A DNA stretch of 64,000 bases from Mesorhizobium sp. WSM4313 (lineage in GTDB: Bacteria; Pseudomonadota; Alphaproteobacteria; Rhizobiales; Rhizobiaceae). The stretch lies in contig NZ_NSFT01000001.1 in NCBI RefSeq assembly GCF_002294725.1, positions 806,001 to 870,000 on the forward strand, in the 5' to 3' direction. A model generated the notes under the pieces. That model searched no databases and was not told the origin of the DNA. It saw only the letters and a list, made by a program, of their open reading frames with translations. Shown here in pieces: positions 5,980 to 30,642 of this stretch. Position numbers and translations under genes: made by a program. Position 1 is the stretch's first letter. Each line of letters starts with the position of its first letter.

Positions 5980-7368
5980 ATGGCCGCTTATGACTATGAT
6001 CTGTTCGTCATCGGCGGCGGCTCCGGCGGGGTAAGGGCGGCCCGGGTGGCGGCGGCTCTCGGCAAGCGCGTGGCCATCGCTGAGGAATACCGCTTCGGCG
6101 GCACCTGCGTCCTTCGCGGCTGCGTGCCGAAGAAGCTCTATGTCTATGCTTCGCAATTTCCCGAGCATTTCGCCGATGCCGCCGGCTATGGCTGGACGGT
6201 GCCCGAGGCGAGCTTCGACTGGCCGACGCTGGTCGCCAACAAGGACAAGGAGATCGCGCGGCTCGAAGCGATCTACAAGAAGAATGTCGAAGGCTCCGGC
6301 GGCGAGACCTTTCATTCACGCGCAGTGCTCGTCGACACGCACAGCCTCTATCTGGTTGCCGAGGACCGCACGGTCAGCGCCGACCAGATCCTGATCGCCA
6401 CCGGCGGGCGTCCGGCGCCGCATCCGGCGCTGCCAGGCCATGAATATTGCATCTTCTCCAACGAGGCCTTCGATCTCAAGGAGCTGCCGAAGGCGATCAT
6501 GATCGAGGGCGGCGGCTACATCGCCGTCGAATTCGCCAACATCTTCCACGGCCTGGGCGTCGACACCACGCTGGTCTATCGCGGCCAGGAGATTCTGAGC
6601 CGCTTCGACATGGATCTGCGCCGCTCGCTGCACGAGACAATGGAGAGGAAAGGCATCAGGATTCTTTGCCACGCGGTTTCGGAATCGGTGCGCAAGACAC
6701 CGGAGGGCAAGCTGGACGTGCTGCTGTCTTCCGGCCAAACGCTGACGGTCGACCAGGTGATGCTGGCGATCGGACGTCTCCCCAATACCGAGAATATGGG
6801 CCTGGAAGGCGTCGGCGTCGAACTCGGCAAGACGGGCGCGATCGTCGTGGACAAATATTCGCGCACCAATGTCGATAACATCTGGGCGATCGGCGATGTC
6901 ACGCATCGCGTGCAACTCACGCCGGTGGCGATCCACGAGGCGATGTGCTTCGTCGAGACGGCCTTCAAGGACAACCCGACAGCGCCGGACCACGACACCA
7001 TTCCGACGGCTGTATTCTCGCAGCCGGAAATCGGCACTGTCGGCCTGTCGGAAGACGACGCGATCAAGCGCTTCCCCGACGTCGAGATCTACCGCGCATC
7101 CTTCCGTCCGATGCGCCACACGCTGTCCGGCCGCGACGAGAAGACGCTGATCAAGCTGGTGGTCGACGGCGCATCCAGGAAGGTGATCGGCGCCCATATT
7201 CTGGGCCCCGATGCCGGCGAGATGGCGCAGCTTCTCGGCATTCCGCTGAAGGCTGGCCTGACCAAGGAGGACTTCGACCGCACCATGGCCGTGCATCCGA
7301 CCGCGGCCGAGGAGCTGGTGACGATGTACAAGCCGACCTATCGCGTGAAGAACGGCGAACGGGTCTGA
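5980..7368 (+). CDS. gor: Glutathione-disulfide reductase
   Basis: A 462-residue FAD/NAD(P)-dependent disulfide oxidoreductase. It has the FAD-binding GGGSGGVRAARVAA at residues 12-25, the redox-active pair in GGTCVLRGCVPKK near residues 44-56, the NADPH-binding GGGYIAVEFANIFHGLG near 175, and the C-terminal active-site AVHPTAAEE. RGCVPKK is characteristic of glutathione reductase rather than lipoamide dehydrogenase, which has NWGCIPTK as seen at 59690-61156. It regenerates reduced glutathione in the cytosol. Confidence 0.95.
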   Translation: MAAYDYDLFVIGGGSGGVRAARVAAALGKRVAIAEEYRFGGTCVLRGCVPKKLYVYASQFPEHFADAAGYGWTVPEASFDWPTLVANKDKEIARLEAIYKKNVEGSGGETFHSRAVLVDTHSLYLVAEDRTVSADQILIATGGRPAPHPALPGHEYCIFSNEAFDLKELPKAIMIEGGGYIAVEFANIFHGLGVDTTLVYRGQEILSRFDMDLRRSLHETMERKGIRILCHAVSESVRKTPEGKLDVLLSSGQTLTVDQVMLAIGRLPNTENMGLEGVGVELGKTGAIVVDKYSRTNVDNIWAIGDVTHRVQLTPVAIHEAMCFVETAFKDNPTAPDHDTIPTAVFSQPEIGTVGLSEDDAIKRFPDVEIYRASFRPMRHTLSGRDEKTLIKLVVDGASRKVIGAHILGPDAGEMAQLLGIPLKAGLTKEDFDRTMAVHPTAAEELVTMYKPTYRVKNGERV

Positions 7369-28462: not shown

Positions 28463-28708
28463 GGGCGCGACAAGCAGCATATTTTGTCCGATAAATCAAA
28501 TAAACGGTACTTTACCAACGGTTGACCGTCATGCCTCGGCGTTCAGGAACCGCTTCGGTCCAAATGGGGTTCGAACACCTCCATGTTCGCAGCCTTCGAC
28601 GGCAAGTTCGGCGACAGCTTGCAGAGCTATGGCGCTGATGTTGGTTCAAGCTGAACCGGTGAGAAGCGCGGAGAGGCCGAGATTCGCTCGAAAGCCGGCA
28701 ACAGCATC

Positions 28709-28798
28709 TGGCGGAGGGAGTGGGATTCGAACCCACGGTGAACTTGCGCCCACGCCGGTTTTCAAGACCGGTGCCTTAAACCGCTCGGCCATCCCTCC
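28709..28798 (-). tRNA. tRNA-Ser (TGA)
   Basis: A 90-base class II tRNA with encoded CCA on the minus strand: acceptor GGAGGGA/TCCCTCC, anticodon stem CCGGT/ACCGG around loop CTTGAAA (anticodon TGA), a long variable arm typical of tRNA-Ser, and T-arm GTGGG-TTCGAAT-CCCAC. The UCA-reading serine tRNA. Confidence 0.96.
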
Positions 28799-29018
28799 AT
28801 CATGGTCCCGTTGGCAGCGATTGCCATGCCGGTACGACTGCGAGCCATGCTCTAGTGCGTCGCGCAAAGACCGTCAATCGCAAGGAACCAATCAGGCGCG
28901 AGGAACCGCTCGGTGGGAGCCTCGAGAACCGCGAGCATTCCATGGACCGGAGCTGCATTGACAATTCGGCGAAAGGTCGGTCAATCTCGGATTGCTAATA
29001 TTCAAGCAGGGGGAAATC

Positions 29019-29123
29019 GTGAAGAAGAGCTATGAGAAGCCGATCCTGACGAAGCGCGAGATCCTGTCGCGCGCGACGGCGCAGCAGGTTTCGTCCGAAC
29101 CACCACCGCCACCGCCGTCATAA
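29019..29123 (+). CDS. Small RiPP-precursor-like peptide
   Basis: A 34-residue frame starting with GTG and preceded by an excellent AGGGGGA ribosome binding site. The leader reads MKKSYEKPILTKREIL, matching the pattern of lasso-peptide leaders and of the short 'putative RiPP precursor' peptides of alphaproteobacteria (MKKxYxKPxLxxRxxL). The C-terminal part is RATAQQVSSE followed by six Pro and Ser. A consensus TTGACA lies at 28958-28963. No cyclase, protease or transporter gene of a RiPP pathway is adjacent; the neighbours are tRNA-Ser and rlpA. The gene is supported by ribosome binding site and motif, not by length. Confidence 0.6.
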   Translation: MKKSYEKPILTKREILSRATAQQVSSEPPPPPPS

Positions 29124-29379
29124 CGGATTTGTCGGCTGATCGCGAACTTAGCGTGCCGATAATCCCTTCCGTCGGCGTTGATGCCGCCGGCAAAGCCTGT
29201 GATAGCAGCTTGCAGGGCGTATGGACGGGCATATGCCACAATCTCGCCCTGTTGTGGCCATAATCGATTAACATCGTGATAAGCAATTCCTGTGCAAAAG
29301 GGATTGGGGATCAAGGTGTTGGCCTGGCGGGCGACTTCTGGCCCCGTCTGGTGACAGCACGGTAGGGGACAATCGAGAC
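29124..29379. other. Intergenic region before rlpA
   Basis: No credible reading frame. It should contain the rlpA promoter; an AT-richer patch with ATCGATTAACATCGTGATAA lies near 29260-29282, including an ATCGAT/ATCGT near-palindrome. Confidence 0.3.
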
Positions 29380-30642
29380 ATGCAGACCCTGACGCGCCCG
29401 CGTCTTCGTCGCGCTTCCGCTTTCGCCCTGTGCGCCCTTTCGGGCCTGCTGCTGGCTGCCTGCGCCTCGCAACCCGAACCGAAGGGAATGGTCTACAAGA
29501 AGGCCCGCTCCAAGGAATATTTCGCCGAATCCGAATATGGCGTGAAGGCGAGCCCGCGTGTCCAGTTCATGCGGCGCGGCGGCGGCCGCGACCAGCTCGG
29601 CAAGCCCTATCAGGTGCGCGGCAAGTGGTACTATCCCAAGGAAGACAAGGGCTACGCCAAGGTCGGCCTGGCTTCCTGGTACGGCGATGCGTTTCATGGC
29701 CGCCTGACCGCCAATGGCGAAGTCTATGACATGACGCATCTTACGGCAGCGCATCCGACGATGCCGCTGCCGAGCTATGCCCGCGTCACCAATCTGGAGA
29801 CCGGCAGCTCGGTGATCGTTCGCGTTAACGACCGCGGCCCCTATCACGAAGGCCGCATCATCGACGTTTCCGAACGCGCGGCGCAGATGCTCGATTATGC
29901 CAAGGTCGGCACGGCCAGGGTGAAAGTGGAGTATGTCGGCCGCGCGCCGCTCGACGGCAATGACGACCAGTATCTGGTGGCCTCCTATCATCCCGGCAAC
30001 AACCGGCCGGATCCTTCGGACGGCCTGCCGACCGGCGTGATGGTGGCCATGAACGGCCCGTCGCCGAGCGTGCCGGTCGCGGCGTCTCCGGCCGCCGCGC
30101 CGTTTCCGGGCGAGTTGACCAATTCGGGGCGGGCCTTTGCAGCGCAGCCGGGGCTTTCGGATCAGCCGGCCGTGCAGCCGGCCGCATTCGCCGTCCAGGG
30201 CGCCAGCGATGTCGCGCTGCCGGATTTCGGTCCAATCGTGCCGGAACGGCCGGATTTCACGCTTCCGCCGAACTCGCCCTTCGCCATGGCCTCCCTGTCT
30301 TACGCGGATGAGCGGGTAGAGCGCGCCGATGTCTTTGCCGCGCTCGATTCCGGCGGCATGTCGCCGGCCGATATCCTGCGTTCATGGAAGAAATCGAACC
30401 GAGAGCTACAGACGCCTGCGTCCGACTATGTCGCCGCCGGTTCCTTCGACGAGGCCGCGAAGGCAAAGCGTGTGGCCGCAGCGCTCGAGCCGTTCGGCCG
30501 GACCGAGATCCAGCGCACCGAGCTCGACGGCAATGACTGGTATGCGGTCAATGTCTATCCAGACGGCCATGGCAGCGTCGACGACCTGCTCCAGGCAGCC
30601 TGGTCGCATGGCGCGCCGGACGCGCTTGTTGTGCGTAACTGA
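29380..30642 (+). CDS. rlpA: RlpA-family septal lytic transglycosylase with SPOR domain
   Basis: A 420-residue lipoprotein: the lipobox LLLAAC puts the lipidated Cys at residue 28. The double-psi beta-barrel spans about 95-187, with GLASWYGDAFHGRLTANGE and RVNDRGPYHEGRIIDVS containing the RlpA catalytic Asp and His region. A Pro/Ala-rich linker follows (about 200-340), then a C-terminal SPOR domain (about 345-420) that binds denuded septal glycan. It cleaves peptidoglycan during daughter-cell separation at the outer membrane. It is followed 122 bases later by the dacF-like gene. Confidence 0.93.
   Translation: MQTLTRPRLRRASAFALCALSGLLLAACASQPEPKGMVYKKARSKEYFAESEYGVKASPRVQFMRRGGGRDQLGKPYQVRGKWYYPKEDKGYAKVGLASWYGDAFHGRLTANGEVYDMTHLTAAHPTMPLPSYARVTNLETGSSVIVRVNDRGPYHEGRIIDVSERAAQMLDYAKVGTARVKVEYVGRAPLDGNDDQYLVASYHPGNNRPDPSDGLPTGVMVAMNGPSPSVPVAASPAAAPFPGELTNSGRAFAAQPGLSDQPAVQPAAFAVQGASDVALPDFGPIVPERPDFTLPPNSPFAMASLSYADERVERADVFAALDSGGMSPADILRSWKKSNRELQTPASDYVAAGSFDEAAKAKRVAAALEPFGRTEIQRTELDGNDWYAVNVYPDGHGSVDDLLQAAWSHGAPDALVVRN

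Follow-up and report, generated by a model that had tools for sequence, protein, structure and literature searches.

A short gene beside rlpA in Mesorhizobium sp. WSM4313 very probably encodes a RiPP precursor whose lasso-type maturation genes lie at a distance and lack a cyclase

The closest described kinds of system are the phosphorylated lasso peptide clusters, with respect to chemistry, and the prochlorosins, with respect to the use of one enzyme set for scattered precursors. In the former, which include bsf of Bradymonas sediminis, paeninodin and pseudomycoidin, B1/B2 recognise a YxxPxL leader together with the residue at -2, and stand-alone B1 and B2 are accompanied by an HPr-kinase-like protein K and a nucleotidyltransferase N (PMC10368454, PMC8498205). 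The HPr-kinase-like BsfK phosphorylates core Ser3 of BsfA in a reaction that B1 speeds up, and Tyr(-17), Pro(-14), Leu(-12) and residue -2 are the positions tested in BsfA (PMC10368454). In pseudomycoidin, hexoses are reportedly attached to the phosphate by the nucleotidyltransferase (PMC8498205). Prochlorosins (ProcA/ProcM), as described in PMC10783134, derive from many genome-scattered precursors with a shared leader and a variable core that are served by one enzyme in trans. The system described here has the leader, B1, B2, kinase and nucleotidyltransferase of the phosphorylated lasso clusters; unlike them, it has no cyclase C in its cassette, no ring acceptor in its cores and many scattered precursors per cassette. 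It shares the one-to-many arrangement with the prochlorosins but apparently none of their lanthionine chemistry, Nif11 leaders or LanM enzyme; as for lanthionine-forming Cys/Ser/Thr cores, Cys occurs in 5 of 90 cores.

The gene lies in a window of 64,000 nucleotides (the whole stretch of DNA analysed), in a variable site flanked, as context, by a tRNA-Ser (TGA) gene on the minus strand (28709-28798; ARAGORN) and by an rlpA-like gene on the plus strand (29380-30642) with a DPBB lytic transglycosylase domain (Pfam PF03330, 90.6 bits). On the plus strand, the ribosome binding site AGGGGGA (29008-29014) is read in the sequence ahead of a gene of 34 codons (29019-29123) that starts with GTG at 29019 and ends with TAA at 29121-29123; all these features agree with the first-pass annotation. 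An alternative, longer frame of 43 amino acids starts at TTG 28992. We prefer GTG 29019 because ten orthologues start at the equivalent GTG or ATG behind a conserved GGGGG box, which is kept ahead of 10/10 same-site orthologues. The predicted leader comprises 21 codons (29019-29081, plus strand; MKKSYEKPILTKREILSRATA) and places Y5, P8, L10, T20 and A21 at -17, -14, -12, -2 and -1, provided that cleavage occurs after A21. The predicted core of 13 residues (29082-29120, plus strand; QQVSSEPPPPPPS) has Ser at +4, +5 and +13 and varies between orthologues. A simple scan of 28700-29500 gave neither a sigma-70-like promoter nor a terminator-like site, and a local operon around the gene, considered as a candidate, was not found.

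Conservation was followed by a pattern search upstream of rlpA in 61 same-genus genomes, rlpA having been located in 61 of the 62 genomes of the genus; the span was approximately 1.5 kb, shorter at contig ends. By this search, an intact orthologue lies between tRNA-Ser and rlpA in 10 of the 61 genomes (G000, G004, G008, G015, G023, G026, G036, G037, G040 and G058), and the site is without a copy in 51. G045 has a decayed same-site copy upstream of rlpA (L090), in which the N-terminal MKKxYEKP is gone and VLTKREMLSRATAQQLPSNVQPQ is still open. With the window peptide as a single-sequence query, two further genomes of the genus gave copies (E 7e-15 and 7e-14). When the ten same-site copies are compared in all pairs, pN/pS is 0.25 in the leader and 0.87 in the tail, the latter with pN inflated by the ungapped comparison of cores of unequal length. 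The window leader differs from that of G026 by three synonymous and no non-synonymous changes and from that of G036 by five and none. The codon changes among the same-site copies led us to reject a chance open frame. The small unannotated gene at 29019 is real, and these codon comparisons indicate that its leader is under purifying selection and its tail is not. The first-pass annotation had held that a lack of in-frame homologues, or codon-level decay in close relatives, would speak against its reading; both points came out in favour of the gene, with the exception of the decayed copy in G045.

Searching with the single window peptide uncovers many relatives, some of them in tandem arrays. 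The 90 distinct precursors gathered from the fetched loci, after one chance match was dropped, have the consensus MKKTYEKPxLxKRxKLSxVTA followed by a tail of 5-16 residues, that is, the conserved leader and variable core of a RiPP precursor. Tyr(-17), Pro(-14) and [LIVMF](-12) are present in all 90 and Ala(-1) in 88, and position -2 is Thr in 64 and Val in 21. The window peptide itself carries the lasso leader pattern YxxPxL with Thr at -2, in the numbering used for BsfA. Scored against curated lasso precursor models, it reaches 12.1 bits with NF033528 (cut-off 33) and 11.4 with DUF5972 (cut-off 22.6), and no NCBIfam or Pfam model exceeds its cut-off. A precursor profile (A1) made from 40 of the 90 precursors finds, at E<=0.001, 4-19 mostly scattered copies per genome in 45 of the 62 genus genomes, matches that arise partly by construction because the positive genomes themselves supplied the precursors for the profile. 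The own genome has seven matches: C1:835022 (the gene at 29019), C1:497520, three in tandem at C45:164 kb, C12:633816 and a fragment at C45:94296. The three tandem precursors (L042:9200-9540) are flanked on one side by a WD40-repeat protein and on the other by a protein that resembles SdrD_B weakly. Similar short Mesorhizobium peptides presumably bear the name 'putative RiPP precursor' in RefSeq. The name is absent from two plasmid regions, where one copy lies inside a 'hypothetical protein' and the other is unannotated in PLSDB's incomplete table. On a plasmid of Mesorhizobium sp. AR02 (L082:5686-6096), the RefSeq 'hypothetical protein' WP_258589692.1 spans an in-frame precursor, MKKTYEKPILTKREKLSAVTAAVQSSKPVIT, at 6001, and the true start probably lies downstream of the annotated one.

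The variable cores have a common feature. Ser or Thr is found at +3 to +5 of 85 of the 90 precursors (shuffle maximum 66), and Ser at +5 of 64, a share to be compared with a top single-position share of 0.35 in 2000 shuffles. In other genera, Ser/Thr at +3 to +5 is found in 29 of 29 precursors (shuffle maximum 24), and Ser at +5 is rare (4/29). Asp or Glu at 7-9, as needed for ring closure, occurs in only seven of the 90 family members, and the core of the window peptide has Glu at 6 only. Paeninodin, in which the C-terminal Ser is the site, differs in this respect: the window peptide ends in Ser, but it is the only one of 90 family members to do so, and we rejected phosphorylation of a C-terminal Ser as a family rule.

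Candidate maturation genes lie elsewhere in the same genome, where two loci of lasso-B2 type score above the Pfam cut-off. The first, L038 on contig C7 (L038:4577-10372), is a full lasso-type cassette that comprises a precursor (MEQNVEKHEYETPSLTVHGSIETITQGGAGTTALDASFPAHTPVGELTFS; L038:4577-4726, 33.2 bits with NF033528), B1, B2, an asparagine-synthase cyclase, an HPr-kinase-like protein and an ABC transporter. The second, L040 on contig C12, encodes a PqqD-type B1 (PF05402, 42.6 bits), a B2 protease (NF033537, 66.3 bits vs a cut-off of 33), an HPr-kinase-like protein (PF07475, 21.5 bits, below the cut-off of 33.3), an NTP_transf_5 protein (95.5 bits) and a formyltransferase-like protein (Formyl_trans_N, 76.6 bits), together with a family precursor of its own, MTKKKYEAPLLRKAGKLSSVVAVASKTL. 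No Asn_synthase cyclase is present among the L040 cassette genes, and no transporter was identified in the L040-type cassette. The B1 recognition protein and B2 leader peptidase of a lasso pathway are thus available to the window peptide in trans, on C12 and not in the window, and the association with it is one of co-occurrence. Cys and His are invariant in 14/14 aligned B2 proteins. In the kinase, H135, G155, G157, K158, D175 and D176 are invariant (12/12 aligned) and residue 159 is Ser or Thr, in line with the His, Gly-rich P-loop with Lys-Ser and Asp pair of BsfK-type lasso precursor kinases, the first Gly of BsfK (G163) not being matched residue by residue. The kinase stays below the HPr kinase family cut-offs also with TIGR00679 (20.1 vs 240) and matches the HprK-related kinases A and B (NCBIfam TIGR04352 and TIGR04355) weakly, with 32.6 and 29 bits (both cut-offs 200). 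A predicted structure of the kinase (pLDDT 88.3) is closest in fold to PEPCK (E 2e-9), followed by HPr kinase (1ko7, E 1e-7). In sequence searches of the PDB, the kinase weakly matched both HPr kinases and replication factor C, and B2 and the NTP protein had no matches.

The precursors and the cyclase-less cassette are inherited together. Two classes of B2 were split by score band, the first at 66-83 bits and the second, that of the cyclase-less cassette, at 42-50 bits, and the split was checked in full on 19 loci (L040 and L062-L079, of which L071 ends inside the kinase gene). Second-class B2 is present in 45 of 62 genus genomes, exactly the 45 with precursors at E<=0.001, and the other 17 have neither (Fisher p 1.4e-15, with kinship not corrected for). 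The window peptide alone, at E<=0.1, has matches in 44/44 cassette genomes and in 0/17 others. On a tree of RlpA and DacA from 61 genomes, the precursor and cassette traits change five times, together; a treekit pair test on this two-gene tree found four of four supported independent pairs concordant (p 0.125, where n=4 cannot reach 0.05). G035, G046 and G059, which are nested among positive genomes, represent joint losses of the precursors and the second cassette; in all three the cyclase-bearing lasso cassette is retained (L188, L190 and L081, 64-78% identity); G040 has second-class B2 and six precursors without first-class B2. Remnants of precursors in seven cassette-less genomes, sought at E<=10, were fragments only (best E 0.044), and gradual decay after enzyme loss was not seen. 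In wider searches, in which scoring covered only a portion of the first-look candidates and own-genus genomes are common to both sets, the family draw (247 genomes) gave the kinase profile in 15 genomes, precursors (E<=0.01) in 16 and both in 13, with three precursor-only genomes (weak fragments) and two kinase-only, and the order draw (297 genomes) gave 13, 20 and 11, with nine weak precursor-only matches (E 8e-4 to 9e-3) and two kinase-only. Over both draws, precursor-only matches range from E 7e-4 to 9e-3, and the genomes with a kinase and no precursor are G323, G342, G379 and G575.

In other genera, precursors and enzymes can be neighbours. All four loci examined in three further genera (L191-L194; 33-49% identity) have precursors beside B1, B2, kinase and NTP genes. 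By coordinates, adjacency is also found in G126 and G139, and the two are apart in G185 and G312 and mostly apart in G263. A kinase scan of named genomes found at least 36 loci; among the matches listed, 33 of 36 have B1, B2, kinase and NTP, the kinase and NTP genes being present in 33/33 loci with B1/B2, and none of the 36 matches the cyclase of the own genome by tblastn. A pattern search found precursors in 15 and none in 18 of the 33 named cassettes listed, and a formyltransferase is present in eight of the 33 listed. Aquibium sp. ELW1220, Devosia sp. Root413D1 and a Bauldia litoralis MAG are examples in which precursors adjoin the cassette. L194 and L259, as well as some other loci with G-handles and named loci, lie on contigs of identical length, are probably from the same genomes and are not independent. 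The arrays of L191 and L194 (G276, G333) have cores with a VT[VLM]IW[VT]P-like motif that are far more uniform than the Mesorhizobium cores. Genes for an AMP-binding ligase and for a phosphopantetheine carrier protein in the L192 cassette (L192:8258-10480) hint at acyl or aminoacyl modification.

Combining these data, we conclude that the gene at 29019 very probably encodes a RiPP precursor whose maturation genes are of lasso type, lie elsewhere in the genome and include no cyclase, and we consider it likely that it is one of several substrates of a cyclase-less system that acts in trans and that its core is probably phosphorylated. In this model, (i) PqqD-type B1 would bind the leader via Y(-17)xxP(-14)xL(-12), (ii) the transglutaminase-like protease B2 would cut after T(-2)-A(-1) and release the core as a short linear peptide of about 5-16 residues (QQVSSEPPPPPPS for the gene at 29019), (iii) the HPr-kinase-like protein would transfer phosphate to a Ser or Thr at +3 to +5 of the core, which is Ser4 or Ser5 in the window peptide, and (iv) the NTP_transf_5 protein may attach a further group to the core phosphate, with the formyltransferase-like gene of the own genome possibly adding another mark. 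Without a cyclase, no lasso ring would form. The order of the steps and their action in trans are part of the proposal, and binding, cleavage, phosphorylation and the NTP step are proposed by analogy with the Bradymonas and pseudomycoidin systems; phosphorylation is somewhat favoured as the main mark. The RiPP nature inferred in the first-pass annotation is well supported by the conserved leader, the variable core, the lasso-leader register, the co-inheritance with the cassette and the adjacency in other genera, and the resemblance to lasso leaders noted there extends to the exact register Y(-17), P(-14), L(-12). It was also right that no modifying enzyme lies nearby: when the 64 kb were searched by tblastn with the proteins of the cassette, the only matches below E 1e-3 were to generic ABC transporters. 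The search it proposed for lasso B and C genes elsewhere in the genome located B2 at L038 and L040 and a cyclase at L038. The comparison with lasso peptides themselves is not supported, as the partner cassettes lack an asparagine-synthase cyclase and all but a few cores lack the acidic residue at 7-9, and 'orphan precursor' is misleading given the likely partner genes on contig C12.

Alternatively, the B1/B2 cassette could mature the peptide in trans by a chemistry other than phosphorylation, either by leader removal only or by glycosyl, nucleotidyl, acyl or formyl transfer. The kinase scores below the curated HPr kinase cut-offs, the PEPCK fold and the variation in accessory genes, with a formyltransferase in a minority of the listed cassettes and the ligase and carrier protein in L192, would fit this scheme; the constant company of kinase and NTP genes with B1/B2, the invariant P-loop, His and Asp pair of the kinase and the enrichment of a hydroxyl residue at +3 to +5 speak against it, and we regard it as unlikely. 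Far less probable is cyclisation by the separate L038 cassette, which would make the peptide a true lasso precursor. The leader is in the register of lasso precursors and a full cassette is available on C7, but that cassette has its own precursor, three genomes keep a lasso cassette without any precursor of the family, G040 has six precursors without a lasso cassette and the window core lacks Asp/Glu at 7-9; we rejected this candidate because of the missing cyclase, the make-up of the cores and the three nested genomes with a lasso cassette and none of these precursors.

That the peptide is a small non-RiPP protein or a regulatory leader peptide, its likeness to lasso leaders being due to chance or to another binding role, is a slim prospect. 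The peptide has no known product and no family model above cut-off, and it sits beside rlpA and tRNA-Ser without enzymes of its own, but such a role is hard to reconcile with the exact leader register, the strict co-occurrence with the cassette and the adjacency to it in other genera. A spurious frame or a decayed, functionless copy, to which the many sites without a copy and the decayed copy in G045 might point, is next to negligible against the low leader pN/pS and the purely synonymous leader differences from G026 and G036. Whether these precursors and cassettes represent an undescribed RiPP class of the Hyphomicrobiales, in which a lasso-type leader, B1/B2 without cyclase and scattered, fast-diversifying precursors would give a library of linear phosphorylated, possibly further substituted peptides from one enzyme set in trans, as with ProcM, is evenly balanced in our judgement. 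A description of this system was not found among the open-access papers searched; most subscription papers lie outside that search, so that unpublished status is not proven.

If the model is correct, the leader-recognition and cleavage machinery of lasso peptides also serves non-lasso products, and rhizobia have a trans-acting RiPP system of the one-to-many kind. Genome mining based on clusters is expected to miss most of the precursors, because the Mesorhizobium genes are remote from the enzymes and so short that routine gene calling passes over them. The system also offers a testable substrate rule, namely which natural cores, of the roughly ten in each genome, a given set of B1, B2 and kinase accepts. 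As for their role in the organism, the rhizobial peptides might act in competition or symbiosis.
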